Shown: positions 944 through 30,300 of the stretch, piece by piece
Numbering within the stretch: the stretch's first letter is position 1
Layout: each line of letters opens with the position of its first letter
From: Sideroxydans sp. CL21
Lineage (GTDB): Bacteria; Pseudomonadota; Gammaproteobacteria; Burkholderiales; Gallionellaceae
Length of the DNA stretch: 64,000 nt
Assembly (NCBI RefSeq): GCF_902459525.1
Contig: NZ_LR699166.1
Coordinates: 3,484,501-3,548,500, forward strand
Reading direction: 5' to 3'
Notes under the pieces: model-generated
Told to the model about the DNA's origin: nothing
The model's input: only the letters and a program-made list of their open reading frames with translations
Database searches by the model: none
Translations under genes and position numbers: made by a program

Positions 944-997
944 ATAACCAGCCACTTGCCTGCTTGCTGGCTTAGTGGATTGGCTAGTAGTTCCATC
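944..997. repeat. 54-nt stem-loop element, copy 1
   Basis: Starts ATAACCAGCCACTTGCC and ends GGCTAGTAGTTCCATC, followed by AG. The basal stem pairs CCACT with AGTGG, and a GCC/GGC apical stem encloses the loop. Flanks and basal stem match the copies at 25892-25948 and 30183-30242, while the apical stem sequence differs between copies but stays paired. It may be a mobile DNA hairpin or a structured RNA; the family is not recognised. Confidence 0.7.
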
Positions 998-1245
998 AGA
1001 ACTTTGAATTATTAGAGGCGCCCTGAAAAAATCGACCGCCAACGTCGGCTGGTACACGAAGGATAGCAAAGCAAAGGAATATAGCCAAAGGAGTCGGGTT
1101 CGGATTGTTTTCAGGAACCTAATCCGTCGGGCTTTCTAGCACGCCCTCTGTTCACATTTGATCCGTACCGACAAATCAATAATCAAGGAGACTACATTGA
1201 TCTCCATCCATCGAGGCCGTCACCCATAAGCCTGCTTGATTGTCA

Positions 1246-1261
1246 GTAGCTTATAAGCTAC
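1246..1261. promoter_or_regulatory. Palindrome upstream of the toxin-antitoxin operon
   Basis: GTAGCTTATAAGCTAC is a perfect 16-bp palindrome ending 3 nt before the toxin start codon. Antitoxins of this class usually repress their own operon by binding such palindromes, so an operator role is inferred from position and symmetry. Confidence 0.5.
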
Positions 1262-1264
1262 ATT

Positions 1265-1534
1265 ATGCCCATGATCGAAGTCTTCCGATACCAGACTGAA
1301 GATGGCACAGAGCCAATAACCGCTTGGTTGCAGTCGCTACGAGACAAGCAAGCGCAGGCCAAGATTCGCGTCCGCCTCAAACGACTGGAGGCCGGCAATT
1401 TTGGAGACTGTGATCCGGTAGGTGATGGCGTGCTGGAATTGCGCGAGCACCTTGGTGCAGGGTATCGGGTGTACTTCGGTCGGCATGGCCAGACAGTCGT
1501 CATCTTACTGTGCGGTGGCACCAAGAAATCGTAA
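1265..1534 (+). CDS. RelE/HigB-like toxin, truncated by a premature stop
   Basis: An 89-residue protein of the phage Gp49-like/HigB (RelE/ParE superfamily) killer type, which cleaves translated mRNA. The N-terminal beta strand, the K/R-rich helix region (KIRVRLKRLEAGNFGD), the LREHLGAGYRVYF segment and the terminal VVILLCGGTKKS strand all fit the family. The TAA at 1532-1534 comes early: the same frame continues from 1535 with a typical family C-terminus (AKEYWQDWKRR) to a TGA at 1592-1594. That TGA overlaps the antitoxin ATG (1591) by 4 nt, the normal arrangement for such pairs. A single CAA-to-TAA change would explain this. The toxin therefore lacks its last helix and is probably weak or inactive. 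A later ATG at 1271 is also a possible start. Confidence 0.8.
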   Translation: MPMIEVFRYQTEDGTEPITAWLQSLRDKQAQAKIRVRLKRLEAGNFGDCDPVGDGVLELREHLGAGYRVYFGRHGQTVVILLCGGTKKS

Positions 1535-1590
1535 ACGGCAGATATCAAGACCGCCAAGGAATATTGGCAAGATTGGAAGCGGAGGCAAAC

Positions 1591-1923
1591 ATGAGCAAGA
1601 AAATTAAAGCTGCGGTATCACACCACGAACGCGAAGTAGCCGAGCTGCGCGCAGATCACAAACTGGCTGTCGAATATCTCAAAGCCGCCATGGAATCTCT
1701 CGATGATCCCGATGATCGCGCAGCCGGTCTACTTGCACTGCGCACCGTTGCCGAGGCATATGGCGGATTAGGTGCGGTTGCCGCAGAGGCCGGTATCAGT
1801 CGCGAATCGCTGTATCGCACTCTCTCGGCCAATGGTAACCCGACGCTAAAAACGCTGCTCGCCGTGCTGAAGGCGGTAGGCATGAAACTTTCGGTGGAGC
1901 CGGACCAACACGTAGCCGCGTAA
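1591..1923 (+). CDS. HigA/addiction-module antidote protein with HTH domain
   Basis: A 110-residue antitoxin expected to bind and neutralise the upstream RelE-like toxin and to repress the operon. The central and C-terminal part is a helix-turn-helix: RTVAEAYGGLGAVAAEAGIS, then RESLYRTLSANGNPTLKTLL, typical of the putative addiction module antidote family. The N-terminal third is a charged helix that would contact the toxin. The ATG at 1591 was chosen over a start at 1510 because GGAGGC lies just upstream and it overlaps the ancestral toxin stop by 4 nt. Confidence 0.85.
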   Translation: MSKKIKAAVSHHEREVAELRADHKLAVEYLKAAMESLDDPDDRAAGLLALRTVAEAYGGLGAVAAEAGISRESLYRTLSANGNPTLKTLLAVLKAVGMKLSVEPDQHVAA

Positions 1924-1947
1924 GTAATACGGCCGGGTAGGTTTGAA

Positions 1948-2349
1948 ATGAACGCACGAGCTAAAACAGCAATACAGCATTGGGGCTTCGTTGCACCGCT
2001 GTTGCAACCTGCGCGCAATGCAAAGGAGTATGCACTGTTGGTAGAGGCGCTGGACGCGGCGATCGATGCGGGCGGCGCGGATGAAAAGCATCCGCTCGCG
2101 CGTCTGGTTGAATACCTCGGCGATCTGGTTGCCGAATACGAGGCCAAAGACAAGGTGCCGGCCGCCGCAACCGGTGCGGATGCGCTACGTTACCTGATGC
2201 AGCGCGATGGTTTGCGTCAGGTCGATCTACCCGAACTGGGTAGCCAGGGTATGGTGTCCGAGTTGCTCTCTGGTCGGCGCGGGTTTAATGCTCGTCAGGT
2301 GAAAGCTTTGGCTGAGCGATTTGGTGTTTCGGCAGCTTTGTTTTTGTAA
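1948..2349 (+). CDS. HigA-type helix-turn-helix antitoxin without its own toxin
   Basis: A 133-residue protein similar to the HigA antitoxins that pair with HigB mRNA interferases of the YgjN type. The N-terminal half is acidic and helical (ALLVEALDAAIDAG, LVEYLGDLVAEYE). The C-terminal half is an XRE-like HTH (LRYLMQRDGLRQVDLPELG, SELLSGRRGFNARQVKALAERFGV). HigA normally follows a higB gene, but here the preceding gene is another antitoxin 24 nt away, so the locus has two antitoxins and one damaged toxin. Its cognate toxin has probably been lost, or it acts as a stand-alone regulator. Confidence 0.75.
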   Translation: MNARAKTAIQHWGFVAPLLQPARNAKEYALLVEALDAAIDAGGADEKHPLARLVEYLGDLVAEYEAKDKVPAAATGADALRYLMQRDGLRQVDLPELGSQGMVSELLSGRRGFNARQVKALAERFGVSAALFL

Positions 2350-2395
2350 TTCAGAACGATTGGGGCCAAAGGGGCAGCCCCCTTGTAATCGGCAA

Positions 2396-3052
2396 TTATG
2401 CGATGAGCGACTGCATGAATGACCTCTGCACATGCCTGAACTGAAAATGCAGATAGATCACTACGCTGAGTATCGCGGCAAAAAAACACCACACAGAAAA
2501 AAACGCGACGTAGTAGAACCAGAACGCCACCACAAACAGGACAAAAGCCAGCACACCAAAAAGAACGACGATACGCTGGCTGGAAAAGAGCGCGCTCACA
2601 CAGGTGGCAGCGATATACAAAGCCAGGACGGGCGGGATATGAAAATGCGGGAATACGTAAACGATATGTTCGCGGATCTCTGAGGTGATCGGATAGTGAA
2701 CGATGAAATAGAGTAGGTAGGCGGCGACCGCAACGCCTGTCAGTTGAAATCCCCGGATCACTTTTTTGCGCCACGGAACTGTTTCCATGTGTCCGATGGA
2801 GAACGGGACAAATACGGGCCACAGGACGTGCGAGAACAATACGAACGCATACGTCATGACAACGTTGAGGAACTTTCCTTCAAACTGAAATGACAACCAT
2901 AGCAGGCCCTCGATGAATTGCTGCAATCCGAACAAGAGCGGAATCATCGCAAAGAACAATTCCTCCCTGCGCTTTGTCAATCTCAGGGTAGCCACGCCGA
3001 TAAGGGACAGAACGGCTCCCGCTGTAAAACTTGCCGCAGCACAAAAACACAT
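2396..3052 (-). CDS. Seven-helix membrane protein of the DUF6629 family
   Basis: A 218-residue integral membrane protein. It starts with MCFCAAASFTAGAVLSLIGV, close to the MCFSA-type start characteristic of the DUF6629 group. About seven hydrophobic helices follow, with a conserved FGLQQFIEGLLW segment in the second helix and HVLWPVFVPFSI in the third. The function of this family is not established. It stands alone; the next gene on the same strand is a separate exported transglycosylase. Confidence 0.75.
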   Translation of the reverse strand: MCFCAAASFTAGAVLSLIGVATLRLTKRREELFFAMIPLLFGLQQFIEGLLWLSFQFEGKFLNVVMTYAFVLFSHVLWPVFVPFSIGHMETVPWRKKVIRGFQLTGVAVAAYLLYFIVHYPITSEIREHIVYVFPHFHIPPVLALYIAATCVSALFSSQRIVVLFGVLAFVLFVVAFWFYYVAFFSVWCFFAAILSVVIYLHFQFRHVQRSFMQSLIA

Positions 3053-3108
3053 TGAGGTCTTCCGTGGGAATAATTAAACGACAGGGTTAAAACGATACTC
3101 TTGGGTAC

Positions 3109-3741
3109 TCAGCCCTTTACCAGATACCTTCGATAATATTCCATCACTCGCGGCACATAGTCTGTTGTTTCCGGATAAGGCGGGATCTGGTTGCCATATT
3201 TCGCAACCGATGCCTCGCCAGCATTGTAAGCGGCGAGTGCCAGATTTCTGTCATTGTGGTACTTCTTCAGCAGGTAGCGCAGGTATCTTGCGCCACCGCG
3301 CACGTTTTGCATCGGGTCAAGCGGATCGACAACGCCATAACGCTTGGCGGTCTCCGGCATCAATTGCATCAGTCCTATTGCTCCAGCCCTGGAAATCGCC
3401 GCGGGCCGGTAGCGCGACTCAACCGAAATCACCGCATGCAGCAGCGCGCTCTCCACACCATAGATCCGAGCAATTCTGTTGACCATCCGTTCATAAATTA
3501 TTTTGTCCGCGATGCTGTATAGCGGTTTACCTGTGTATGCTTCGGGGACCACGACGATTTGGTTGGCCGCTTCCAGAATTACTACGGAGTGGTCACTGTC
3601 GATTTGAATATTGCGTAAATTGACTGCGCCTGCACCAGTGGTTGAAATCGATTCCTCTGCCCACACCGGTTGCATGCAAAGAACGCTTACCGCAATGAAG
3701 GTGACTGCCGACAATAGTGGTACGCGTTCCAATGCTTTCAT
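3109..3741 (-). CDS. Exported lytic murein transglycosylase (SLT domain)
   Basis: A 210-residue periplasmic enzyme that cleaves the MurNAc-GlcNAc bond of peptidoglycan to leave 1,6-anhydro ends. Residues 1 to about 28 form a signal peptide ending in VWAEE. The SLT domain spans roughly residues 85-205: the catalytic Glu lies in VISVESRYRP, followed by the family motifs GAIGLMQLMPETAKRYGV, NVRGGARYLRYLL and LALAAYNAGEASV. The C-terminal ETTDYVPRVMEYYRRY is also typical. It is a compact single-domain member without lectin or SPOR domains. A conserved upstream sequence (3914-3966), shared with the gene at 10192, may belong to its promoter region. Confidence 0.9.
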   Translation of the reverse strand: MKALERVPLLSAVTFIAVSVLCMQPVWAEESISTTGAGAVNLRNIQIDSDHSVVILEAANQIVVVPEAYTGKPLYSIADKIIYERMVNRIARIYGVESALLHAVISVESRYRPAAISRAGAIGLMQLMPETAKRYGVVDPLDPMQNVRGGARYLRYLLKKYHNDRNLALAAYNAGEASVAKYGNQIPPYPETTDYVPRVMEYYRRYLVKG

Positions 3742-3913
3742 GGCTGGCTCCTATGAATAAATGAACAAAGCAATACAGAGTCATGTAATAAAGGAGCAGG
3801 ATCGAGTTTTTTCAGCAACCAGATCCGTCAGTCTCTTTGTGCGCACGCCGGCATGATATTTTCAATTATGCAAACTGGCCTCTTGGTGATCGCGGCCCCG
3901 GTCATGCGTTTCA

Positions 3914-3966
3914 GAAAAGCTGTGCCGCGATTATGTGCTTGCAAGCCAAAGCTTCTGTGCTGCAGC
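3914..3966 (-). repeat. Two-copy conserved upstream element, copy 1
   Basis: On the minus strand this reads GTGCGCTGCAGCACAGAAGC, then TTTGG, a variable stretch and CATAATCGCGGC. The copy at 10734-10789 keeps the same order with a few substitutions. Both copies lie upstream of a minus-strand gene for an exported protein (3109-3741 and 10192-10656). CATAAT would serve as a -10 hexamer, so a shared promoter or operator is possible. Confidence 0.5.
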
Positions 3967-4040
3967 GCACATTGCCTTGCGAAATCCCGCTGTTGAGTTG
4001 AAAACCGTTTTGATTCAGCCCACCACCCCTCATCCCCAAC

Positions 4041-4064
4041 CCTTCTCCCGCCTGCGGGAGAAGG
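4041..4064. repeat. REP-like palindrome
   Basis: CCTTCTCCCGC and GCGGGAGAAGG form an 11-bp perfect stem around a 2-nt loop, preceded by the usual CCCTCATCCCCAAC lead. This is a common extragenic palindrome of proteobacterial genomes. Confidence 0.75.
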
Positions 4065-4246
4065 GAGTAAATTCAAGTAGCTGAATAGATTGACCATTGG
4101 CGGATATGGCCTGCTGCCAAAGCTGATATTTACAGGAGAGCCATAGTTGACAGCGTCAGTCGGCTATATGACAATGATTTCCCGATACGGCGCCCGCCGT
4201 CCCGTCCGACGACGGAATGCCCCTCGAGATTTAACGAGGAGTAATC

Positions 4247-4396
4247 ATGAAGAATCCCAATGTTCCCCAACCGTTTTCCAGTGAATCCGCCGCCGCCTGT
4301 TTTCGGGCTGCGAAGGCAATGGCATTTACGATGGCGTTGGCCGATCCCGAATTGATCGCCTGGAAAGATCGCGCCACTTCGCATGCCGCTGGATGA
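4247..4396 (+). CDS. Small hypothetical protein (49 aa) heading the DsrC-like operon
   Basis: A 49-residue protein starting MKNPNVPQPFSSESAAACFR, preceded by a strong GAGGAG ribosome binding site 5 nt before the ATG. The sequence is helical (AAKAMAFTMALADPELIAW), has one Cys, and shows no signal peptide or membrane segment. It lies 67 nt upstream of the DsrC-like gene on the same strand and is probably co-transcribed. The strong ribosome binding site and position support it as real. Function unknown. Confidence 0.6.
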   Translation: MKNPNVPQPFSSESAAACFRAAKAMAFTMALADPELIAWKDRATSHAAG

Positions 4397-4463
4397 ATGA
4401 ACCAGCAAACTCACCTGAGTTTCGATGGATCGTTTTCTGCAAGATCAATAGAAGGAGATCACC

Positions 4464-4832
4464 ATGCTCGATATCAATCACGCTCTTAATGAACAGGCGA
4501 ATGGCCGCTTTGATCCTGAAGGTCATATGTACGACCTTGAACATTGGTCTCCGCTCATCGCAAAACAACTGGCGCTTGACGAGGGGATCGGGGAGCTCAC
4601 CGAGGCGCATTGGCACGTAATCCATGCGCTGCGAAACCTGTATCGCGAGCAGGGACGTCCGAAAAATACGCGCATCGTAATGCAAATGCTGGCGCAGGAT
4701 TTTGCGGATGAAGGCGGGCGTCGCTATCTTTACGAGCTGTTCCCGAAAGGGCCCGTCAGCCAGGGGTCACGTTTGGCGGGCGTGCCCGTTCCTCCCAATG
4801 CGAGCGATCCCTCGTTCGGCTGGGCCGGCTGA
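4464..4832 (+). CDS. DsrC/TusE-like protein lacking both active cysteines
   Basis: A 122-residue member of the DsrC/TusE/DsvC fold family, which normally carries sulfur or a trisulfide on two C-terminal cysteines. The family features are visible: DPEGHMYDLEHWSPLIAKQL, the ELTEAHWHVIHALRNLYRE helix, and YLYELFPKGPVSQGSRLAGV, which aligns with the LFP-G-P---A-C-I-AG motif of DsrC. The first conserved Cys is replaced by Ser (QGSRLAG), and the extreme C-terminus (PPNASDPSFGWAG) has no equivalent of the penultimate Cys. The protein contains no cysteine at all, so it cannot do classical sulfur relay. Cysteine-less DsrC paralogues have been proposed to be regulatory. It lies in a small operon with unknown proteins on both sides. 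Confidence 0.85.
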   Translation: MLDINHALNEQANGRFDPEGHMYDLEHWSPLIAKQLALDEGIGELTEAHWHVIHALRNLYREQGRPKNTRIVMQMLAQDFADEGGRRYLYELFPKGPVSQGSRLAGVPVPPNASDPSFGWAG

Positions 4833-4890
4833 GGATGCCACGCAATTTTGTTTTGCTGTCGCAGCTTCTCATCAACGCAAGGAGAAAATC

Positions 4891-5121
4891 ATGAACACTG
4901 CAGATATGTTGATCTATGTACATCCCAAGCTGGATGCGCAAGACAGGATGGCCTTGGAAAGAATTGTGGAGGGGAGTCTAGGGGTCGATTGCGCGCAATT
5001 CGATTCTCATACGCATCACCATGCAATGATGGTCAAATATGATCCTGACGCAATCCAGGGCATGCAGATATTGAATATGGTACGCATTACCGATCCGGCG
5101 GCGGCGATAGTGGGGCTTTAG
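4891..5121 (+). CDS. Small hypothetical protein with a ferredoxin-like (HMA-type) pattern
   Basis: A 76-residue protein starting at the ATG after AAGGAG, 58 nt downstream of the DsrC-like gene. The pattern of strand (MLIYVHPKL), helix (DRMALERIVEGS), strand (DCAQFDSHTHHHAMMVKYDP) and helix (GMQILNMVRI) resembles heavy-metal-associated domains, but the CxxC motif is absent and a His cluster (HTHHH) is present. Metal binding is possible but not shown. It probably forms an operon with the two genes before it. Confidence 0.65.
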   Translation: MNTADMLIYVHPKLDAQDRMALERIVEGSLGVDCAQFDSHTHHHAMMVKYDPDAIQGMQILNMVRITDPAAAIVGL

Positions 5122-5185
5122 TTTCAGAAAAACATCGTTCGCCAATTGGACGCGCGAACTAGCTCCGGCTAAACCTCCTCAGGCT

Positions 5186-5926
5186 TCAACCTGATTGAGT
5201 TGCCCCGCAGCACTTCTTGTACTTTCTGCCGCTGCCGCAAGGGCAAGGTGTATTGCGGCTTATTTTTGGATTTTCATTTTCAGGGGTTTTGCCACTGGCG
5301 CTGTCTGCTGCACGACGTTGCGGTGCCCAGAATTTGTATATCCAGCCGACGCTCGCCGGGATCTGTTTTGAAAGCTCTTCGCGCTGAGCCGGTGTTTTTA
5401 CCAGTTCCTCTTCTGCCTCGGTGACTTCCGCTGCACCCAGCAGGTAGATTGGCCGCAATGCCACTGGGCCGTGACTGGATTCGAATAAGGCTTTCCAGCT
5501 GTCGCGCTGCATATCGATGCCGATCATGTAGCCGTGTGCCCACATTTCACCGTCCATGTATTCGTGCTCGTCGCCTTCATAGACTTGCATGTCGAACACG
5601 GGCTCGAAATGTTCCGGCTCCTGGTGCAGGCTCCAGCCGATTGCATTCAAGTGGCGCGTCATCAGGCCAGTGATTCTTTCTGCCTGCGCCCCGGAAGCAA
5701 ATGTCGGCGCATCTGCTGCTGTGGGGCCCCATACGCGCGGGATCCATTCGCCTGGCGTTGGCATTGCCGGGCCGGAAATGAGGGCAGTTAGAAATCCATC
5801 CAGGCAATCCAGCAGCATGACTTCATTTGTCGTGGCGTCGGACATCAGGAAGCTGTCGAGCTCGTCCATTTCTTTTTCGGAGAGCGCGAGCGTTACTTCA
5901 GTTTCGCTTGTTTCTTGTTTGGACAT
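5186..5926 (-). CDS. YecA/UPF0149 family protein with C-terminal SEC-C motif
   Basis: A 246-residue cytoplasmic protein. Residues about 10-190 form the UPF0149 (YecA/YgfB) helical domain, with the typical [20 protein letters not shown] and [16 protein letters not shown] segments. The last 25 residues are a SEC-C zinc motif ([17 protein letters not shown]), which binds one zinc and often contacts the ribosome or SecB/SecA partners. The substrate or partner of this family is not established. The gene stands alone. Confidence 0.85.
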
Positions 5927-5995
5927 AATTGTTATTACTTCCTTTTCTGAACGATTGTGGACGCGCTGATTTATTCAGCACTTCCCTTTACCAGG

Positions 5996-6871
5996 CTAGT
6001 CTCTATGCAGGAATGCTTCCAGTGCTGATGCGACCTGCTCGGGCTGGTCGTGCTGAACATTGTGGCCCGCATCGGTGATGGTGACAACCTGCACGTTTGT
6101 GAAACTTCCGATTCGGTCGCGATATTCATCCGGGTCGTTGCCCAGGCGATCGTACACATAGCCTTTATCTGCCACCAACATCAGAACGGGCGCCTCGATC
6201 TTGCGCCAGGTCGCCTTGGAATCCTCGATCCGGTAAGGGATCGGCGACGGGATCCTGTGCCAGGGATCGCAGGCCATCTCGACCTGGCCGTCAGGGCGCA
6301 TGCGGCTTACCACGTGGGACAGGAAGGTCGCTTTCTTGATATCCAGGCGGGGATTGGCCAGCATCAGGCGCCGTGCCAATGCTGCATGATCCGCGTAGAT
6401 CCGCGGTGTCGGCTGCTCCCGAATGGCGTTGATCCACTTTGCCATCGCGGCCGGTGCGTCGATATCCGCTTCCAGCTTCATGCCGATGAAATCGAGCATC
6501 GCGAGCTGTGCGACTCGCTCGGGGCGCACTCCCGCATACATGCTGGCGATGTTGGCACCCATGCTGTGGCCGACGATGCGCACCGGCTTGTCGCCCGAGT
6601 AGTGTTCCTGCAGGCAATCGAGGTCTGCATAGTAATCATGGAACCAGTAAGGTCTCGCCAGCCATTGCGATGCACCGTAGCCGCGCCAGTCCGGCGCGAT
6701 GATGTGCCACGATTGTTTGAGCGCATCCACGACAAACTGGAACGTGGGCGAAGAGTCCATCCAGCCGTGCAAAAAGAATACGGTCGGCGCGTCGGGCGAG
6801 CCCCAATGCCGGACGCAATAACTCAAGCCGCGCACGTTGATGGTTTCGGTTCTGGACTGGGTGTAGGGCAT
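5996..6871 (-). CDS. Alpha/beta hydrolase
   Basis: A 291-residue alpha/beta-hydrolase fold enzyme, probably an esterase or similar; the substrate is unknown. The oxyanion-hole motif FFLHGWMDSS, nucleophile elbow VGHSMGANIA (catalytic Ser), acid region after MLVADKG and catalytic His (DAGHNVQHD) are all in order. The frame is open further upstream to 7078, but homology-like sequence begins at the ATG at 6871 (MPYTQSRTETINVRGL), so that start was chosen. The extra upstream codons run through a hairpin repeat. No membrane segment or signal peptide is seen. Confidence 0.85.
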   Translation of the reverse strand: MPYTQSRTETINVRGLSYCVRHWGSPDAPTVFFLHGWMDSSPTFQFVVDALKQSWHIIAPDWRGYGASQWLARPYWFHDYYADLDCLQEHYSGDKPVRIVGHSMGANIASMYAGVRPERVAQLAMLDFIGMKLEADIDAPAAMAKWINAIREQPTPRIYADHAALARRLMLANPRLDIKKATFLSHVVSRMRPDGQVEMACDPWHRIPSPIPYRIEDSKATWRKIEAPVLMLVADKGYVYDRLGNDPDEYRDRIGSFTNVQVVTITDAGHNVQHDQPEQVASALEAFLHRD

Positions 6872-7179
6872 GATGGCTGGATGTGGATAAGCGACGTGGT
6901 GAGCTAAAGGAACATCGCTTACATTTTCGCATTGATAGATACCCAGTGCGAGTAATAAGGTGTGCCGAGCTTGCGCTCGGCTACCGTCCGGATGGCGCAA
7001 AAGCGTCGGGGACTTGCCCCCTCGAACAATGCTTGTGTTTCCTTGCAGGAAAACGGGGTCGATTTGATACCGCCGCATTCAACTCGGATGTTCTGCCTGA
7101 GTCCAAGGAAAACATTGACGTTGACCGGAGTACTGCGGTTACGGATACTCCGATTCATGAAATTAAATTCCCCTTCCTT
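6872..7179. other. Intergenic region between divergent genes, with hairpins
   Basis: Around 300 bases between the divergent hydrolase and membrane-protein genes. It contains a perfect 7-bp hairpin at 6964-6981 (GCCGAGC, loop TTGC, GCTCGGC) and another at 7037-7054, both REP-like. No additional gene is seen. Confidence 0.45.
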
Positions 7180-7626
7180 ATGACGAGCTTCTGGACATGG
7201 CTCTCCATCGTCGGGCTGTCGATGACCCCCAACCTGATACTGGGGCCATCGGCGGCGCTCGGCGTGGGCATCGCGGCGCACTGCAACCCGTGGATACTCC
7301 TGACGGTGGTTGCCGTGGCGGGTTACTTCGAAGGGCTTGTCGTCGCCTGGCTCGCCGGCGAGAGCACGCACATCGGTTTCATCGGCCGGTGGGTTGCGCG
7401 GATGCGCACGCCGAGGAGCACGGCGTTGGCCGACAGGTGGGGAGTCTGGGGCGGTCTCACTATAGGCTGCGCCGTGGTCGGTCAGGAGCCCATCCTGGTG
7501 GCGCTGCGCTGGCTGGGCGTCGACATGCGCAGGATATGGCTGCCGCTGGCGGTCAGCAACGCGGTCTTCGCGGTCATCTACTACGCAGTTATCTGGTTCG
7601 GCCTCGACCAGATGGCACACCTCTGA
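7180..7626 (+). CDS. Small multi-pass membrane protein
   Basis: A 148-residue hydrophobic protein with four to five membrane helices, including MTSFWTWLSIVGLSMTPNLI, NPWILLTVVAVAGYFEGLVV and WLPLAVSNAVFAVIYYAVIW. The frame is open upstream to 6883, but the upstream part is not hydrophobic and crosses repeats, so the ATG at 7180 is taken as the start even though its ribosome binding site is weak. The pattern of a glycine-rich re-entrant segment plus GQEPILVALRWLG resembles small multidrug-export or DedA/SNARE-associated membrane proteins, but assignment to a family is not secure. Confidence 0.6.
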   Translation: MTSFWTWLSIVGLSMTPNLILGPSAALGVGIAAHCNPWILLTVVAVAGYFEGLVVAWLAGESTHIGFIGRWVARMRTPRSTALADRWGVWGGLTIGCAVVGQEPILVALRWLGVDMRRIWLPLAVSNAVFAVIYYAVIWFGLDQMAHL

Positions 7627-7912
7627 CTCCGCCCTGCATGATCAATAGCACGGACCAGCATCAAATTATTTCCGGCAGCCGCCCCGTCAATTTTCAGGGT
7701 TCCGCTTCCGGATATTCGACTCCCTCGCAAGCCAAAAAGCACGGCCATCTTCGGGGGGTTTTCCTGCCGCGACAATCCGGTGCAGCCTATGAGGTTCAGC
7801 TTCGATCCCAACGGGAAATGCATGGAAGGGAACCTTGTGGACATTCCGGCATCAGAGTTCCGGCAAATTGCGCCATTAAGAAAATCAACCAGATCAAAAT
7901 GCAGGAACTAAT

Positions 7913-8677: not shown

Positions 8678-8791
8678 ATGAACCGTTGGGATAGCATCGA
8701 ATCATTCTCGGCAACATGCCCTTCCTTTTTCACAATAGCCAAAGGATCAGCTTCGCTTTTCATTGCAGTATGTAATCCATGCTGTGGATCT

Positions 8792-10093: not shown

Positions 10094-10191
10094 CAGTTCG
10101 TTCCGGATACATAAGTGACAGCATTGATTAAACGCAAATCGGCCAAGCCGCAGGTCGGCCTGGCCAGAGCCCGATTACCTACCGACCCCCT

Positions 10192-10656: not shown

Positions 10657-10733
10657 GTTGAATCTCCTTAATGTGTTTCAGGAAAGTTAAACAGTGTGCC
10701 TGGAATTCCCCGCCTGCACGAGGTATTCAGCAT

Positions 10734-15406: not shown

Positions 15407-15491
15407 ATGCCGCAGTCCCGCTACCATAGTTTCCCTTAGGCCGGAGACTTTGCGCCCGTACTTTTCAGTACGTTTGCCAAGTACTGTGCAT
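15407..15491 (-). ncRNA. Class I c-di-GMP riboswitch (GEMM-I)
   Basis: On the minus strand the core matches the GEMM-I consensus: CACAGT..GGCAAAC, a GTACT/AGTAC hairpin capped by a GAAA tetraloop, GCGCAAAGTCTCCGGCCTAAG, then the second hairpin ending TATGGTAGCGGG. The pair CCTAAG and TATGG is the 11-nt receptor that docks the GAAA loop, as in the known structure. The outer P1 stem pairs ATGC-CAGT (15483-15491) with ACTG-GCAT (15407-15416). The aptamer precedes the 60-aa gene on the same strand. The sign of regulation cannot be read: no clear terminator is seen. Confidence 0.88.
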
Positions 15492-22519: not shown

Positions 22520-22777
22520 ATGATCAGCAGAGAAACCGTTATGCAAACCCTGAAGTGCAGCCCGTACGAGTACCCGAGAATGCTTGATGAGAGGTTTCCC
22601 CATGTTCTGGAAAATATTCTCAAGCTCTGGGATTCACCCGATGCAGAACCCTATTTTGCCGACTTGTTGCAGCCCAATGGCCGTGGCGGCGGCAGGATGG
22701 ATCGCGATGGTTTTCCGGAACAAGCCTGGGAAGAAATACTGCAACTGAAGCAGCTCTACGATAAACCCCGCCACTGA
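22520..22777 (+). CDS. Conserved hypothetical protein (85 aa)
   Basis: An 85-residue soluble protein starting at the ATG after AAAGGAG. The sequence is helical with a conserved-looking core (MLDERFPHVLENILKLWDSP, EPYFADLLQPNGRGGGRMDR, GFPEQAWEEILQLKQLYD). Upstream in-frame ATGs at 22490-22502 lack a ribosome binding site. Function unknown; no neighbours on the same strand. Confidence 0.65.
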   Translation: MISRETVMQTLKCSPYEYPRMLDERFPHVLENILKLWDSPDAEPYFADLLQPNGRGGGRMDRDGFPEQAWEEILQLKQLYDKPRH

Positions 22778-22898
22778 CTGCCAGACGGCCGACTTGGGTT
22801 TAGGTTTGTTCGCCCTGTTCGGCAGGGCAGGAAGATTGCCCCTGTTTAAAACACAACTTCCTCTCCGAACCCGACATCTAATCCGCTCGCTCCATCCA

Positions 22899-24044: not shown

Positions 24045-24045
24045 A

Positions 24046-24456
24046 TCAGAAGGGCTTCACAACAACAAGAATGACGACTGCAAGCAGAATGAGCACCGGC
24101 ACTTCATTGAAGAAACGGAACCAGACATGGCTTTTGGTGTTGCGATCTGCGGCAAACACCTTGACCAGATGACCGCAATACAGATGGTAGGCGACAAGTA
24201 CCGCCACCAGCGTGGTCTTGGCATGCAGCCAGCCGCCGCTGAAACCGAAACCGAACCACATCCACAATCCGGTAATCACGGCGAGCGCGCCGATGGGCGT
24301 CACGAAGCGGTAGAGTTTTCGTTCCATCAGTTTCAAACGCTCGCGCACTGCCTGTTCTTCCGCCATCGCATGATTGACGAAGATGCGCGGCAGATAGAAC
24401 AGTCCGGCGAACCAGCTGACCACGAAGAAGATATGAAAAGCTTTTAACCACAACAT
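24046..24456 (-). CDS. hemJ: HemJ-type protoporphyrinogen IX oxidase
   Basis: A 136-residue inner-membrane protein with four helices. The family signatures are present: LWLKAFHIFFVVSWFAGLFY with the conserved His, LPRIFVNHA, and WLHAKTTLVAVLVAYHLY, where the conserved Lys lies. HemJ oxidises protoporphyrinogen to protoporphyrin in heme synthesis in bacteria lacking HemG/HemY. It is likely co-transcribed with the downstream methyltransferase gene (1-nt gap between stop and next start region). Confidence 0.85.
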   Translation of the reverse strand: MLWLKAFHIFFVVSWFAGLFYLPRIFVNHAMAEEQAVRERLKLMERKLYRFVTPIGALAVITGLWMWFGFGFSGGWLHAKTTLVAVLVAYHLYCGHLVKVFAADRNTKSHVWFRFFNEVPVLILLAVVILVVVKPF

Positions 24457-24481
24457 AACAATTCCTCAACACTTGAAAAGT

Positions 24482-24573
24482 CCGTTCGTCCTGAGCTTGT
24501 CGAAGGAACGAACGGCGCTCGAAACAAGCTTGGCGAAGAGTCGTTCATGGTTCGACAGGCTCACCACGAACGG
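24482..24573. repeat. Pair of inverted REP-like repeats
   Basis: Two units face each other: 24482-24515 (CCGTTCGTCCTGAGCTTGTC onward) and 24541-24573 (ending GGCTCACCACGAACGG). These are the common proteobacterial extragenic repeats often misread as short proteins. A third single copy lies at 29961-29990. The pair sits between hemJ and the ABC permease gene and could form a terminator-like structure. Confidence 0.75.
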
Positions 24574-24588
24574 CCTTCAACGCCGGTG

Positions 24589-25374
24589 TTAGCGCGACAA
24601 TCTGCGCCGGAACAATACCAGCGATACATAAAAAGCGATCAGCGTATATGCCAGCAACACGCCAATATGCAGCAACGCCTGCGGCGGAATCGTGCCGCCC
24701 ATCAATGGCCGCGCCAGGTCTATCGCGTGCGTCAGCGGCAGGACGCCCGCGATCACCTGCATGCTTTCCGGCAACTGGGTGACCGGAAAAAACACTCCGC
24801 ATAGTAGCATCATCGGTGTTATGACCAGCGTGAAGTAGTACATGAAGAAGTCATAGGCAGGCGCCAGCGCAGTCATGATCAGACCGAGGGAAGCGAAGGC
24901 AAGACCAATCAGCAAAGCCAGCGGAATCATCCACAGCGACATGAGCGAATGCGACAGGCCGAGCACCCAGATCACGGCCAGTACAGCCGCGCCGGACATC
25001 AGGCTCTTCGTGGCGGCCCACAGGATCTCGGACAGCACCACGTCATCCAGCGAGACCGGGGTATTGAGGATAGCCTCCCAGGTGCGCTGTTCATGCATGC
25101 GGGCAAACCCGGAATACAGTGCCTCGAAGCTGGCGCTGTTCATGGTGCTGTAGCACACGGTACCGGCGGCGAGGAACGCCATGTACGACATGCCGCCCAT
25201 CGTCGGCAGCAAACTGCCCAGACCGTAACCCAGACCCAGCATGTAGATCACCGGATCGGCCAGATGGCCGAGGATGGAAGGCGCCGCGATCTTTTTCCAC
25301 ACCAGCCAGTGCCGTTGCCAGATGGGAAAGAAACGCAGGCTCAATTTCGGTAAAGCAAAATCGCGGTTGTTCAT
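24589..25374 (-). CDS. ABC-2 type transporter permease (NodJ-like)
   Basis: A 261-residue integral membrane permease with six helices, of the ABC-2/NodJ family, which exports drugs, polysaccharides or lipids. Typical segments: FLAAGTVCYSTMNSASFEAL, EAILNTPVSLDDVVLSEILW, and LVITPMMLLCGVFFPVTQLP. It is the last gene of the VanZ-ferredoxin-hydrolase-ATPase-thioesterase-permease operon; its start overlaps the thioesterase stop by 4 nt. The ATPase partner is the gene at 26020-26934. Confidence 0.88.
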   Translation of the reverse strand: MNNRDFALPKLSLRFFPIWQRHWLVWKKIAAPSILGHLADPVIYMLGLGYGLGSLLPTMGGMSYMAFLAAGTVCYSTMNSASFEALYSGFARMHEQRTWEAILNTPVSLDDVVLSEILWAATKSLMSGAAVLAVIWVLGLSHSLMSLWMIPLALLIGLAFASLGLIMTALAPAYDFFMYYFTLVITPMMLLCGVFFPVTQLPESMQVIAGVLPLTHAIDLARPLMGGTIPPQALLHIGVLLAYTLIAFYVSLVLFRRRLSR

Positions 25375-25838
25375 TTCGTCCTGTCCTGTTCCACTGCCGC
25401 GAACGCGCGGTCCGGCGACACCACCCCGACACCGCGCTCATACACGCAGCCTTTGGATGTGCCTTCCGCGGCGACACGATCCCGGTGAATGAAGGTGTGA
25501 GTCATGTAAAAGTATTTCTCGTCCCAACGCAACACTTCCAGTTTCACTTCGTAACGCTGGAAGATGTTCAGGGGCTTCTTGTAGGTCATGGTGTGCTCGG
25601 CGATGACCGGTATCCAGCCGCGTTTGAACATCGCTTTCAGCAGACCGCTGCGTGCAAACACATCCACCCGGTTGAGATCGCAAATAGTCAGGTAGCGGCC
25701 ATTGTTCATGTGAAAGTTGATGTCGATGTCGTTGGGTAACACGTGCAGCGTGAGCGAGCTCGTATAGTTCCCGTTGTCCAGCCGCTTCATGAAGAAGGAA
25801 CGGATGATGACCCACAGCATGCGGAAGATCAGGTTCAT
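25371..25838 (-). CDS. Hotdog-fold acyl-CoA thioesterase family protein
   Basis: A 155-residue protein with a hotdog thioesterase fold: LPNDIDINFHMNNGRYLTIC holds the catalytic Asp-type motif, followed by MTYKKPLNIFQRYEVKLEVL and MTHTFIHRD. The ATG at 25838 lies at the edge of the inserted MITE, and no ribosome binding site remains. Removing the MITE would put this ATG in a 4-nt ATGA overlap with the stop of the ABC ATPase gene. Substrate not known; the operon suggests lipid-related transport. Confidence 0.8.
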   Translation of the reverse strand: MNLIFRMLWVIIRSFFMKRLDNGNYTSSLTLHVLPNDIDINFHMNNGRYLTICDLNRVDVFARSGLLKAMFKRGWIPVIAEHTMTYKKPLNIFQRYEVKLEVLRWDEKYFYMTHTFIHRDRVAAEGTSKGCVYERGVGVVSPDRAFAAVEQDRTK

Positions 25839-26023
25839 TTCAAGTCACAGTCGAAGCAAGGCCAAGGCGGCAAGGTTGAGGCGACGAAGACATAACCAGC
25901 CACTTGCCGCGTATTTTGCGGCTTAGTGGATTGGCTAGTAGTTCCATCAGTACAGACAGTACGGCAAGGAGCCGAAGACCGCAGCCAACGCGGGGATCGC
26001 GATGAATGTGACTTGAAATTCAT
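25834..26023. mobile_element. 180-bp MITE-like insertion between two operon genes
   Basis: The element (25839-26018) has inverted ends TTCAAGTCACA and TGTGACTTGAA and is flanked by a 5-bp target duplication (TTCAT at 25834-25838 and 26019-26023). It contains no gene. It sits exactly between the stop of the ABC ATPase gene and the start of the thioesterase gene. Removing the element and one target copy restores GAATGAACC, in which the ATPase TGA overlaps the thioesterase ATG. It carries copy 2 of the small stem-loop element inside it. Confidence 0.8.
25892..25948. repeat. 57-nt stem-loop element, copy 2 (inside the MITE)
   Basis: Starts ATAACCAGCCACTTGCCGCG and ends GGCTAGTAGTTCCATC, followed by AG. 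The basal stem CCACT/AGTGG and apical stem GCCGC/GCGGC pair perfectly. The outer parts are identical to copy 1, while the apical stem has changed on both sides. Confidence 0.75.
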
Positions 26024-26934
26024 TCGCGCATCTCCCTGCCGGTCAGTTTCAGGAACACGTCTTCCAGATTCGCCGGCCGGTGAAGATAGCGCAACGCGCT
26101 TTGACCCTGCAGATGGGCAACCAGGGGCTGCGCATCTTTCACGTAGCAGAATACCGACTCGCCGCTGACTTCGAAGCGTTGCGAATATCTGGCGGCGTGT
26201 TCGCCCGCCCACAGGCCCGAAGTCTCGCCGAACACTTCCACCACTTGCGGCTCGATGTTTTGCTCGATCAATTCGCGCGGTGATCCCTGGCTGATCAGTT
26301 TTCCGTTGTCCAACACCGCAAGGCGATGGCACAGGCGTTCAGCTTCATCCATGAAGTGTGTCGTGAGCAACAAGGTCTTGCCCTGCTGCGTGAGTTCGCG
26401 CAGCCGCTGCCAGATCAGGTGGCGCGCCTGCGGGTCGAGGCCGGTGGTCGGTTCGTCGAGGAAGATGACATCGGGGTCGTTGACCAGTGCACGCGCCAGC
26501 GTCAGGCGCCGTTTCATGCCGCCGGACAGCGTGGGCACTTTCGCATCGCGCTTGTGGGTGAGGCTCGCGAATTCCAGCAGAGACGGGATGCGCGCCTCGA
26601 TCTCGCTGTCCTGCATCCCGAAGTAACGGCCGTAGACCAGCAGGTTTTCCGCCACGGTGAAATCGGGGTCGAGGTTGTCCATCTGCGGCACCACGCCAAC
26701 GCGTATACGCGCCTCGCGCGCGGCCTGCGGCACGGGCAGGTCGAGCAGCATCGCCGTGCCCGCATCCGGCGTGATCAGCCCAAGCAGCATGCGCAAGGTC
26801 GTGGTCTTGCCCGCACCGTTGGGGCCGAGCAGGCCGAAGCATTCGCCTTTGTGGATAGACAGGTCTAGCCCGTCCACCACGCGCTGTCCGCCATAGGATT
26901 TTTGCAGGCCGCTCGCACGAATAACGACGTTCAT
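26020..26934 (-). CDS. ABC transporter ATP-binding protein (NodI-like)
   Basis: A 304-residue ATPase subunit. The Walker A ([16 protein letters not shown]), Q-loop region, signature motif ([14 protein letters not shown]), Walker B ([14 protein letters not shown]) and H-loop ([10 protein letters not shown]) are all intact. The C-terminal 80 residues are a DUF4162-like regulatory extension. It pairs with the permease at 24589-25374. Its start overlaps the hydrolase stop by 4 nt; its end now abuts the MITE. Confidence 0.92.
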
Positions 26935-27551
26935 ATCTCAAATCCGGTGAAATGTTGCCTGACGATATCGCGCAATTGTGTCAGTCGTCCGTGAAAGAAA
27001 TGCCCGGCCTGCGGCAGTACGACGATGGGTAAATGCTGCGGGCGCGCCCAATCAAGTGCATCTGCCAGCGGCACCACGTCATCATGCTCGCCGTGTATGA
27101 CCAGTGTATCCGGCGCAACGGCCGGCATGGCAAAACGCCCGACAGCGGGCGCGGCCAAGATGAGATGCTGCGGGTGCACCAGCAATGCAGTGCGCGCGGC
27201 GACATAGCCGCCGAAAGAGAATCCGGAGAGGATCAGGGGCAGTTCTTCGCCGAACTGTTCCTGCGCAAAGCGCACGATGGCGAGCATGTCCTGTTCTTCG
27301 CCGTCGCCGCCCGTGAATTCGCCCTCGCTTGCGCCCACGCCGCGAAAATTGAAACGCAGCGTGACGCAGCCGAGTTCGGCGAAAGTCTTGGCCAGCATCA
27401 CCGCCACCTTGTTCTCCATGGTGCCGCCCATGGTTGGCAAGGGATGTGCCACCACGGCGATGCCGCAGGCTATTTCATCGGGCGTGTGCACGACACCCTC
27501 GATCAACCCCGCCGGACCGGCGGTCGAAAATTTTTCCAGTACGGTCGCCAT
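26931..27551 (-). CDS. Alpha/beta hydrolase of the KANL3/Tex30-like type
   Basis: A 206-residue small alpha/beta hydrolase. Motifs: [17 protein letters not shown] (oxyanion region), [15 protein letters not shown], nucleophile elbow [12 protein letters not shown] (Ser), acid [11 protein letters not shown] and base AGHFFHGR (His). The start ATG at 27551 overlaps the stop of the ferredoxin gene by 1 nt, so the upstream open frame to 27695 is not used. Substrate unknown. Confidence 0.88.
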
Positions 27552-27862
27552 CAGATCTTCAGTCTCTCCACCACGCGCCCGTTTTTGAGGTGTTCCTCGA
27601 TGATCTCGTCCAGGTCGCTCTGGTCGACATAGGTGTACCAGACCGCCTCGGGATAGACCACCAGCACCGGGCCCAATTCGCAACGGCCCAGACAACCAGC
27701 CGAGTTGATGCGCATCGTTCTTTCGTCGGTGGAAAGTCCAAGCTGCTTGACCTTGTCTTTGACATAATCACGCGCTGCCTGCGCCTGGTGGTTGTTGCAG
27801 CAGTCTTCACCCGCCGGGCGCTGGTTCACGCAAAAGAACACGTGCTTGTCGTAATGACTCAT
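27551..27862 (-). CDS. Thioredoxin-like [2Fe-2S] ferredoxin
   Basis: A 103-residue thioredoxin-fold ferredoxin. The cluster ligands are visible: Cys in VFFCVNQ, the CC pair in AGEDCCNN, and the pair in INSAGCLGRCELGP. It resembles the stand-alone ferredoxin domains related to NuoE. The gene overlaps the VanZ gene by 4 nt upstream and the hydrolase by 1 nt downstream, so it belongs to the operon. It probably transfers electrons, but no partner is evident. Confidence 0.88.
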   Translation of the reverse strand: MSHYDKHVFFCVNQRPAGEDCCNNHQAQAARDYVKDKVKQLGLSTDERTMRINSAGCLGRCELGPVLVVYPEAVWYTYVDQSDLDEIIEEHLKNGRVVERLKI

Positions 27863-28950
27863 TTCTTTCCTTCTTCAAGATGGCGAGCAGACCGCACCCG
27901 CCAGAGATATCCGCCCAGCAGCAGCGGAAAAACAAGCGAAACGTTATGCGACAACCCATTGTAGTTGCGCAGGTGTCCGAAACGCCATTGATATAAGCGC
28001 ATCGCGGCTGAGGGCGTGCCGCTGTCCAGCACCCAATTTGCCAGCACCACGTAGCTCAGCGCCCCCAGCGCGGTCGCCCAGATGAGCCGCGATCGTGACA
28101 GCCACGAGATGCCGGTGATCAGAATCACACCGATCACGATGCCCAATATCGCTTCGCTGTTCAGCCACAGCAGCAGCGCCCAGGATTTGAGCAGCAGCGC
28201 AGCAGCGATGAATTTTGTGAGGGCAACCACGCCAAGCATGAGCGCCAGCCCGACAACCACATGCCGGCGTACCCGCAACAGTGTCAACAGCAGCGCCCCC
28301 ACCATCAGCAGATTCAATGCAACCGCCACGCTTTCCCATATGCTGAACGGCGCTTCCGGGATCGCGACGAACATCCGGTAAGCCGGCTCGGTGATGAACA
28401 CATTGCCCAGCATGGGCAAGGAAGGATTGATCTGCGCAAACATCCACAACATCACCAGCGCCAACCCGAAATCCACGCCGGTCCCCTGCCTGAACAGGCC
28501 GATGCGCCATTTCGTCACGCGCATGAACCAGGCACGGTTCGCGACGGATACCGCCAGCAATGCGCCCGCAAAAGCGCCGATGCCATTGGCCAGGATGTCC
28601 GCATTGGAACTGGTACGCATGGGCAAATACATCTGCAGATATTCCATCGTGACGGAAAGTCCGATCGCCAGCAGGGTTGCCCACAACACGCTGCGCACGT
28701 TGCCGAAACAAGTGAGCAAATTGAGTGCGAGCAAAAGACCAAAAGGAAGATAGGCCAGCAAATTGCTCAGCGCGTCGAAACCCGAGTAGGTCAGCATCAG
28801 GGGCGAAGTGAGGACTGCCCAGAACTCCAGCCCCTGCTCCTGCCAGCCCAGGAATGGCGACAGACTGGCATACACAATGAACGCGGCATACCCCGCCGCC
28901 AGATAGCGACGCAACAGACTGCGCGATTTAGCAGGTAATGAAGTGCTCAT
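27859..28950 (-). CDS. VanZ-family membrane protein
   Basis: A 363-residue polytopic membrane protein with about ten helices. The VanZ-like part is the first 150 residues: YSGFDALSNLLAYLPFGLLL, LSVTMEYLQMYLPMRTSSNA and DILANGIGAFAGAL carry the conserved Asn, Glu and Asp pattern. The rest is an additional hydrophobic region. First gene of the overlapping operon. Function of VanZ proteins outside teicoplanin resistance is unclear. Confidence 0.85.
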   Translation of the reverse strand: MSTSLPAKSRSLLRRYLAAGYAAFIVYASLSPFLGWQEQGLEFWAVLTSPLMLTYSGFDALSNLLAYLPFGLLLALNLLTCFGNVRSVLWATLLAIGLSVTMEYLQMYLPMRTSSNADILANGIGAFAGALLAVSVANRAWFMRVTKWRIGLFRQGTGVDFGLALVMLWMFAQINPSLPMLGNVFITEPAYRMFVAIPEAPFSIWESVAVALNLLMVGALLLTLLRVRRHVVVGLALMLGVVALTKFIAAALLLKSWALLLWLNSEAILGIVIGVILITGISWLSRSRLIWATALGALSYVVLANWVLDSGTPSAAMRLYQWRFGHLRNYNGLSHNVSLVFPLLLGGYLWRVRSARHLEEGKK

Positions 28951-29075
28951 ACGCAGAGCCGGAGGAAATCGCTCAAACTTTTAATGATTGACTCGGGAGT
29001 AAGGGTAAGAAACAATGCCCCGCTTTCGAAATTAGACCAATACAAATTGGCTTTTACTAGTACTTAGGAGGAATT

Positions 29076-29540
29076 ATGGCATACCTGCATTGGTCCAGTG
29101 ACCTGAATACCGGCATAGAGGTCATCGACAACCAGCATAAACGCATTGTGGATTACCTGAACGAACTAAACGATGCGAACGACAGGGCCGACAGGCAAGC
29201 AACGAATCACGTGCTGAACGAGCTGGTTGATTACACGCTCACTCATTTTGCATTCGAGGAAGAGTTGCAGGAAAGGGCTAACTATCCTTTCGTCAGGGCA
29301 CACAAGCGCGTACACGATATTTTCACCAAGCGCGTGGCTGAATTCCAGAAACGCGCGGCGGCCGGGGAAAATGTTGCGCCGGAGCTGCTTTCCATGCTGA
29401 AGATATGGCTGGTCAACCACATCAAGGGTGACGACGCGGACTATGCGGATAGCGTCAAGAAGATGTTGGGAGTCGAAGGCACAGAAAGCAGAGTAGCCGG
29501 AGGTTGGCTGGGCGTGGCGTTGAAGAAATTTTTCGGCTGA
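29076..29540 (+). CDS. Bacteriohemerythrin
   Basis: A 154-residue diiron oxygen-binding protein. All seven metal ligands are in place: His21, His57, Glu61, His76, His80, His115 and Asp120. Members store or sense oxygen, useful in microaerobic iron- or sulfur-oxidising lifestyles. After the fold a 25-residue tail (RVAGGWLGVALKKFF) could be amphipathic. The ribosome binding site AGGAGG, 4-5 nt before the ATG, is very strong. Confidence 0.93.
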   Translation: MAYLHWSSDLNTGIEVIDNQHKRIVDYLNELNDANDRADRQATNHVLNELVDYTLTHFAFEEELQERANYPFVRAHKRVHDIFTKRVAEFQKRAAAGENVAPELLSMLKIWLVNHIKGDDADYADSVKKMLGVEGTESRVAGGWLGVALKKFFG

Positions 29541-29581
29541 TGCCCGGTTCCATTCGCTCCTTCCCGCAACCTCGACGGAAT

Positions 29582-29908
29582 TCAAATCTTCTTGCTCACA
29601 CCTGGTAAAGCAGCAGCTTTCTGCTGCTTCGCGATCGCTGCAGGAAGCCGCTTCGGTGCAGCGATGCGCAACTGCTTGTTGACGTTGTATACCCCGAACA
29701 CCACCGTGATCGCGCTCTCGGGTACTTGAAATTCGTCGGCAAGGAATGTCACCAGATGCGCCGTCGCCTTTCCGCGCACCGGATTCTCGGCGACGTGGAT
29801 CTCCAGTTGTTTGCCGATGACTTTGCCTATCTTGGTTTTTTTGGCGCGGGGGCGGCCGAGGATGTTGAGGACGAGGGTGTCGTTTTCCCACCAGCAGAAC
29901 GGTTCCAT
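29582..29908 (-). CDS. DUF167/YggU family protein
   Basis: A 108-residue member of UPF0235 (YggU-like). The family pattern is visible: LVLNILGRPRAKKTKIGKVI, LEIHVAENPVRGKATAHLVT, FLADEFQVPESAITVVFG. The C-terminus is extended by about 20 residues. Function of the family is unknown. It precedes the left arm of the DUF3800 repeat structure. Confidence 0.8.
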   Translation of the reverse strand: MEPFCWWENDTLVLNILGRPRAKKTKIGKVIGKQLEIHVAENPVRGKATAHLVTFLADEFQVPESAITVVFGVYNVNKQLRIAAPKRLPAAIAKQQKAAALPGVSKKI

Positions 29909-29923
29909 CTACTCTCCAAATTT

Positions 29924-30300
29924 AAAACCAAAACCGTCGGGGGTAGCCAGACAGCTAAAGCCGTTCGTGGTGAGCTTGTCGAACCATGAATGGCTGGGCG
30001 CATAGTTTGCCGGGGGTTGCCCGGCGGCAAGTCACTTTTCTCGTCTTGCCGAGAAAAGTAACCAAAAGAGGGCGACCCCGGTTTGCCGCCCTTCGGGTTC
30101 CCTCGATATTTCGCCAACAAGCGGGGCTGCGCAACTCGCCCTGGCGGGGCACAAACCCCGTGCCCCACTGCGGAGCTCGGACATAACCAGCGACTTGGCT
30201 GAAGTCTTTTTTCAGCCTAGTCGAATGGCTAGTTGTTTCATCAGTGCTCGCCTGAACCTCCGCTTGTTGGCGAAATATCGAGGCGGCGCACAGGGGGAAA
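29924..30300. repeat. Left arm of a long inverted repeat around the DUF3800 gene
   Basis: The sequence matches the reverse complement of about 31430-31665: starting AAAACCAAAACCGTCGGGGG, then from 30030 through the module bounded by a perfect 24-bp inverted repeat (30101-30124 and 30260-30283). Compared with the right arm it has two insertions: a REP unit plus spacer at about 29961-30029 and the 60-nt stem-loop at 30183-30242. The rest, to the DUF3800 stop at 30461, has a hairpin (GGGCTGCC, 30438-30457) and no gene. Confidence 0.8.
30183..30242. repeat. 60-nt stem-loop element, copy 3
   Basis: Starts ATAACCAGCGACTTGGCTGA and ends GGCTAGTTGTTTCATC, followed by AG. The basal stem is CGACT/AGTCG, where copies 1 and 2 have CCACT/AGTGG: both sides changed together. 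The apical stem GGCTGAA/TTCAGCC is also different but paired. The matching place in the right arm (near 31485) lacks these 60 bases precisely. Confidence 0.8.

Follow-up and report, generated by a model that had tools for sequence, protein, structure and literature searches.

A dispersed, REP-like mobile hairpin with a conserved 3' tail in Sideroxydans and its relatives

Hairpin elements derived from IS200/IS605 insertion sequences cause no target duplication, have a short conserved flank on one side and carry a subterminal hairpin. Integron attC sites are folded single-strand sites with unpaired bases and contain the core boxes RYYYAAC/GTTRRRY. To our knowledge, movement of REP-like palindromes in cells has still not been demonstrated. 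Most REPs split into GTAG and CGTC types, the latter having no dedicated transposase, and some REPs sit inside palindromes, according to the sections of PMC3733652 used here. The RAYT enzyme TnpAREP cuts single-stranded REP DNA at CT, or in one system also at CA; the choice of CT by the AG of the guide tetranucleotide has experimental support in that system, and attempts to change the cut site failed in two other systems (PMC8266576, in the sections used here).

We analysed a stretch of 64,000 nucleotides from Sideroxydans sp. CL21 (the window), in which an earlier note had reported three copies of a stem-loop element. All three are present at the positions given there (Table 1), and a scan of the window with a covariance model yielded these copies and one further, weak match (14.2 bits); within the family to which they belong the hairpin is 54-62 nt long. 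At the 3' end copies 1 and 2 have TTCCATC, and copy 3 has TTTCATC. A search for repeats of at least 40 nt returned none of the three, presumably because the length of the apical stem varies. Folded as single-stranded DNA on the written strand, copies 2 and 3 are far better than shuffled sequences (z -3.9 and -5.8, respectively) and copy 1 is not (z -0.8, 40 of 200 shuffles folding equally well). No match to copy 3 was found in plasmid or phage collections. The flanks of copy 1 are similar to those of copies at two other loci, L003 and L032.

Table 1. Copies of the element, their parts and the empty site in the window
Feature	Position	Strand	Description	Evidence
Copy 1	944..997	+	54 nt, short apical stem	Covariance model, 71.2 bits
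Copy 1, stem part	944..988		ATAACC..GGCTAGT	
Copy 1, tail	989..997		AGTTCCATC, then AG	
Copy 2	25892..25948	+	57 nt, intergenic	Covariance model, 67.0 bits; empty orthologous site in G029
Copy 3	30183..30242	+	60 nt, long apical stem	Covariance model, 84.0 bits
Copy 3, stem part	30183..30233			
Copy 3, tail	30234..30242		Then AG	
Empty site	31484..31485	.	Point matching copy 3 in the second inverted-repeat arm	Sequence comparison

Each unit consists of an imperfect stem-loop part, mostly 45-51 nt long, and a conserved 3' tail, GGCTAGTNGTTNNATC, of 9 nt or, less often, 10 nt. On the written strand it reads ATAACCA G CNACT T, apical stem-loop, T AGTNG A(A/T) TGGCTAGT NGTTNNATC, i.e. the helices comprise CCA/TGG, the five pairs CNACT/AGTNG and, beyond a T-T mismatch, an apical stem that is variable. 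The outer helix continues to the pairs 2-49, 3-48 and 4-47; in other families 2-49 is mainly T-A or C-G, and 3-48 and 4-47 are mainly A-T or G-C, and in the long form of the Gallionella type 4-47 has A opposite C in 121 of 122 distinct rows. The compensatory changes that the earlier note had described for the basal and the apical stem are real in alignments of the copies. In an alignment of 103 distinct rows 95.0% of the cells pair, 12 of 13 pairs are changed on both sides and two-sided cells number 127 vs. 30.5 in shuffles, control structures slid by 1-3 columns being paired to 35.1% at most; this alignment was fitted to the model and hence leans towards the structure, and the unfitted first alignment of 22 copies gives a smaller excess, i.e. 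17 vs. 4.6 cells and 4 vs. 2.3 pairs. Thus, the stem is maintained through compensatory change, and the pairing is under selection, as had been proposed. In the tail the sequence itself is conserved as the stem varies, even in relatives with quite different stems.

Mismatches in the long form lean towards G.T on the written strand, with 78 G.T vs. 24 A.C cells in 137 distinct rows (pairs 4-47 and 22-28 left out) and, when changes are inferred on a rough tree, 63 vs. 22 of them; in a control with columns of the long form re-paired at random the cells number 170 G.T vs. 117 A.C. The short form (30 rows) has 7 G.T vs. 8 A.C cells and 6 vs. 8 changes. The lean of the long form is mild and does not settle which strand acts. 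Copies show no replication-strand bias, the leading/lagging counts being 20/19, 9/15 and 3/8. A structured RNA, which the earlier note had offered as an alternative to a mobile hairpin, finds no counterpart in Rfam 15, where the window has no family match at the gathering score and copy 3 matches, at E <= 5, two microRNA models only, both far below the cut-off; the mild G.T lean leaves room for an RNA or a strand-specific role.

The three copies in the window are members of an element family dispersed in genomes of iron-oxidising bacteria and their relatives, and other bacterial families of the same order harbour diverged forms. In the Sideroxydans sp. CL21 genome (3.77 Mb, one contig) 22 sites match a strict pattern vs. 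0 for a reversed-pattern control, and the covariance model, built from these 22 copies including the three of the window, finds 39 copies at E <= 0.001 and 42 matches at E <= 10 in the same genome. Copies occur in both orientations. The element is present in all 34 searched genomes of the genus and in all three from the rest of the family, with 1 to 70 copies each. A first search in the rest of the order gave a match, and a weak one, in one of 24 genomes, and in an even sample of the order 11 of 150 genomes match at E <= 1e-8, seven of which lie outside the family. The matches outside the family include relatives with other stem sequences (ATAAGCAG..GCTTAG, GCAGCCAG..GGCTGG, GCAAGCAG..GCTTGG) and a tail that is much alike (TAGTTYCATC), usually with AG next to it. 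Among the matches listed, named records confirmed by the model come mostly from Gallionella, Sideroxydans and other Gallionellaceae or from Nitrosomonadales MAGs. Pattern matches listed outside the relatives of Gallionella comprise 57 loci, one of which is real (L163, 70.9 bits) and three of which score 18-20.5 bits. The pattern listing includes chance matches in unrelated taxa, and L163 belongs to a gammaproteobacterial MAG that is possibly misbinned.

At the loci compared the unit is either there in full or missing exactly, and it is mobile. This part of the earlier note's interpretation is borne out by two empty sites, one orthologous and one paralogous, by the uniformity of the insertion rule and by the nesting of copies in one another. 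Copy 3 is indeed precisely missing from the other arm of the inverted repeat, which, when reversed, reads GAGCTCAGAC^AGTGCTCGCC (the caret marks the junction) vs. GAGCTCGGAC^element^AGTGCTCGCC at copy 3. A comparison with relatives revealed the corresponding state for copy 2, as the locus in genome G029 reads GACGAAGAC^AGTACAG and lacks exactly the 57-nt element; around this site G029 and the window share 493 bases on the left at 97% identity and 553 bases on the right at 94%, and there is neither a target duplication nor a loss of bases. Genome G019 also has GAAGACAGTACA at this position and then diverges through another insert. Hence two exact empty sites are available, neither with a duplication. 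In a single pair of empty and filled sites exact loss is indistinguishable from gain; gain is favoured because many contexts obey one rule.

At seven loci (L055, L070, L099, L210, L317, L321 and L322) a copy is nested in another copy at GGCT^AGT, and in six of them the inner copy is of a sister type (ATAACC(A/G)ATGACTT..). In the nested product the 48-nt stems stand in a row and the 12-nt tails are stacked behind them, e.g. AGTCGTTTCACC AGTAGTCCCATC AGGAGTTTCATC at L099, an order that tandem duplication would not produce. Further copies are nested at other AG or AA points in L123, L134 and L210. Nested arrays record the order of insertion. Some single hairpins (L050, L123 and L059) have additional 12-nt tails next to them, which were first taken for scars of stem excision; slippage loss of one stem from a nested array would account for them, and the idea was dropped.

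The insertion rule was derived from 195 pattern matches with flanks, 188 of which were well parsed, the seven dropped being three chance matches and four misparsed ones. Directly 3' of the element these 188 copies have AG (167), AA (18), GG (2) or TG (1), i.e. AG or AA in 185, and at one fixed position in 172; for 13 of the 188 a 10-nt tail was chosen where AG or AA stood one base later, a choice that favours the rule. AG makes up 6% of the dinucleotides in the flanks. Counted by distinct contexts, AG or AA follows in 72 of 75, and the 5' flank shows no conservation. As the element lies 5' of AG or AA, it lies 3' of CT or TT on the opposite strand. An IS110-type core was set aside, CT being found on one side only. 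Many sites are located in or beside palindromic repeats, such as CCGGCGN^AGGCCGG, CTTCGAC^AGGCTCAG, GCGGG^AGAGGG and GCCGG^AATGACG, and a non-palindromic repeat, CCAC^AGAG, is likewise a target. In 70 distinct contexts, 17 of the 195 rows being left out (chance matches, nested copies or copies without AG or AA next to them), 30-nt target windows fold better than nearby AG/AA sites (-3.7 vs. -2.3 kcal/mol, p 1.2e-5). Both junction bases are unpaired in 60% of the targets vs. 65% of the control sites for 30-nt windows and in 46% vs. 56% for 40-nt windows, i.e. not more often than in controls, and thus insertion into hairpin loops is no general rule.

Compared with the GTAG REPs moved by RAYT/TnpAREP, as described in the sections of PMC8266576 and PMC3733652 used here, the element is likewise a short imperfect hairpin without a gene of its own that occurs in many dispersed copies, has a CT-type junction (167 AG and 18 AA of 188 on the written strand), can be found within palindromes, as some REPs are, and resides in genomes that often contain RAYTs. 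It differs by its sharply defined ends with a conserved 3' tail and by its direct self-nesting. Inspected by eye, neither strand has GTAG directly 5' of the hairpin; on the strand with CT in the 5' flank the hairpin is preceded by CTAG, which is within the extended stem, or CNAC, and on the written strand it is followed by GTNG. Nor was a RAYT gene flanked by the element, as in a REPtron, found among 52 Y1/RAYT loci, about 45 of them distinct. The element is REP-like but lacks two defining features of REPs, the GTAG tag and the flanked RAYT. CGTC REPs, in the sections of PMC3733652 used here, are also dispersed short palindromes with no known dedicated transposase, whereas our element has no CGTC end, its ends being ATAACC.. 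and ..ATC; palindromes that we assign to the CGTC type by inference (CGTCATTCCGGCGNAGGCCGG) are among its insertion targets. With IS200/IS605-derived hairpins it shares the lack of a target duplication, the short conserved flank on one side and the subterminal hairpin, and it differs in having one hairpin instead of two ends, a 2-nt instead of a 4-5-nt target and no parent insertion sequence that we could find. Like attC it may be viewed as a folded single-strand site with unpaired bases; its conserved ends show, by eye, no RYYYAAC/GTTRRRY boxes, and it nests at GGCT^AGT. In contrast to a MITE mobilised by a DDE transposase it leaves no target-site duplication, as seen at the two exact empty sites. 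The earlier statement that the element fits no attC, group II intron, hammerhead or REP pattern is right where REPs tagged with GTAG or CGTC are concerned; the element is REP-like all the same. We found no earlier description in the openly licensed literature on palindromes of Gallionella/Sideroxydans or on REPIN/RAYT systems, nor the element among the REPs in the sections of PMC3733652 used here. The question of REP-like movement becomes testable with this family, whose ends are sharp, whose target rule is simple and which offers empty sites at orthologous loci as well as nested arrays. A test of whether hairpins are moved in trans by RAYTs, or by another enzyme, would find in it both a direct substrate and a genomic read-out.

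A Y1 HUH transposase would leave just such traces, namely a hairpin with a two-base flank, exact ends and no duplication, and the anatomy of the element thus points to single-strand chemistry. In our best explanation, whose chances we put at about even, the element is a small non-autonomous hairpin, REP-like in size and shape, that is mobilised in trans, RAYT-type enzymes being the most likely agents. A single-strand (HUH, Y1) transposase would cut after CT at one end and at the foot of the stem at the other, and the excised hairpin would then be joined behind another CT, in DNA that is single-stranded or forms a cruciform. We favour RAYTs (TnpAREP), acting in trans, for this role because they cut at CT, because all seven family genomes with at least 29 copies have a RAYT match and because copy number tracks RAYT presence. 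A G.T wobble with the guide AG would fit the use of TT as the second choice. The single-strand transposase suggested in the earlier note is plausible and favoured as the mover, but no gene linked to the element was found in the loci screened, and there is no replication-strand bias.

Among 37 genomes of the family, copy numbers range from 4 to 70 in the 14 that have a RAYT match and from 1 to 27 in the other 23 (p 2.7e-5, not corrected for phylogeny), where the 14 include G034, a weak match with 25% identity that was counted as negative in the size-corrected test. Genome size by itself is correlated with copy number (rho 0.66), and once it is taken into account the partial rank correlation of RAYT presence and copy number is 0.66 in 22 genomes that are at least 90% complete, likewise uncorrected for phylogeny. 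Eight further element-bearing genomes were considered, of which G149, G097, G163, G156 and G122 (31% identity) have a RAYT match and G154, G103 and G080, with 1-2 copies each, have none. Sideroxydans sp. CL21 itself encodes one intact RAYT at genome positions 2129415-2129969 (NF047646, 194.9 bits) that has its own GTAG hairpins, as do the RAYTs inspected in general. The 52 loci screened (30 Y1 loci from the search of 12 genomes, two loci in Sideroxydans sp. CL21 and 20 RAYT loci, i.e. part of the RAYT places found, with flanks up to about 1.5 kb) contain no credible element, the best score being 14.4 bits at one locus. Y1_Tnp from Pfam was searched in 12 and later in 37 genomes; it missed the RAYT of G036, which was recovered only with a protein query, so that an absence judged by Pfam alone carries little weight.

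An enzyme distinct from RAYTs, either an as yet unrecognised strand-specific recombinase or another HUH enzyme, might also move this precise hairpin by reading hairpin plus tail and joining them 5' of AG, a possibility that we regard as real if rather doubtful. It would account for the lack of a RAYT match in genomes that have 10-25 copies, i.e. G028 (complete, 25 copies), which has two other Y1 matches, G025 (12 copies), and G004 (complete, 12 copies) and G015 (10 copies), both of which also lack a Y1_Tnp match; a RAYT match is equally absent from G035 (7 copies) and G029 (27 copies; 64% complete). The lack of a GTAG guide and the conservation of the tail while the stem changes point in the same direction. 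So does the lean of long-form mismatches towards G.T on the written strand, a lean that folding of the other strand would not favour and that counts against RAYTs. At 101 loci the ORFs of 100 aa or more that lie no farther than 1.5 kb from an element were clustered, and by eye the 40 largest clusters showed no recurring transposase. Against such an enzyme stand the copy number, which tracks RAYT presence after size correction, and CT cutting as a known property of RAYTs, and the genomes without a match may have lost the enzyme once the family had spread. More boldly, we tentatively speculate that the family is a separate class of mobile hairpins across an order. An as yet unrecognised enzyme would then read, on one strand, the hairpin shape together with the fixed 3' tail and would insert the element 5' of AG, and copies would accumulate inside each other as arrays of stems with stacked tails.

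Spread via RNA, i.e. a transcript of the written strand being copied into DNA with a target ..CT-3'OH priming on the AG at the RNA 3' end, would account for the conserved 3' flank next to a variable 5' flank and for the G.T lean of the long form on the written strand, and would explain AA as a wobble alternative. We consider it unlikely, as both ends are exact at the empty site and as the 200 3' ends found in 1.5 Mb of loci, for the most part loci chosen for complete copies, include a single clear case of 5' shortening (L381), which a later deletion may have caused.

A cis-acting RNA or protein-binding site, e.g. a terminator or stability element, without mobility of its own would explain the selected pairing but is contradicted as a full account by the occurrence in both orientations, the insertion inside other repeats and the exact presence/absence, which makes it most improbable in this role, a cis-acting secondary function being possible. 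Equally little credence is due to passive spread, in which the hairpin would be an old inherited part of larger repeats and move only with them. In G163 and G122 the element does lie within larger repeats, of about 190 and 310 nt, that are common to several copies, and the flanks of copy 1, L003 and L032 are similar; yet the 75 distinct host contexts under one rule, the exact empty sites and the self-nesting require independent insertions, and for copies of the Gallionella type the empty sites contradict it. The element appears to have spread in G163 and G122 also inside these larger repeats, and some of the copies there have probably moved along with their host repeat.

Judging the absence of a RAYT, the REP-associated tyrosine transposase favoured as mover of the element, by Pfam is unreliable in these genomes, since the Y1_Tnp search of genome G036 missed the RAYT at C84:1075-1569 that a protein query finds. 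In several of the fetched loci L171-L190, genes for Y1 transposases about 240-307 aa long have short repeated tags, e.g. GGGGTCAGGTCTTGCC and GGGGACAGACCACGG, on their flanks, an arrangement like that of the TIR-flanked class in PMC3733652.

A hairpin related to the element, TTAACCA..GGCTATGCAAAGC, has another tail and is partly located within the same nested arrays, i.e. copies inserted in other copies. Moreover, the repeat TAGGTTCGGCAC..GTGCCGGATCA appears to be an insertion within a copy of the element.

Copy 3 of the element is found only in the left arm of the inverted repeats that enclose a DUF3800 gene and whose 138-nt arms are 96% complementary. Gene and repeats may constitute a separate mobile or repeat-bounded module.

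Features in the window, the fetched loci (L) and genome G036
Feature	Location	Strand	Remarks
RAYT	G036:C84:1075-1569		protein query, 48% identity
Related hairpin	L099 5109-5163		
Related hairpin	L122 563-625		
Related hairpin	L123 11-65		
Related hairpin	L318; L382; L384		
Repeat TAGGTTCGGCAC..GTGCCGGATCA	L075 3075-3259		
Inverted repeats	window 29916-31677		138-nt arms plus 55- and 42-nt arm pairs
DUF3800 gene	window 30461-31297	minus	between inverted repeats
c-di-GMP-I riboswitch	window 15408-15488	minus	67.9 bits
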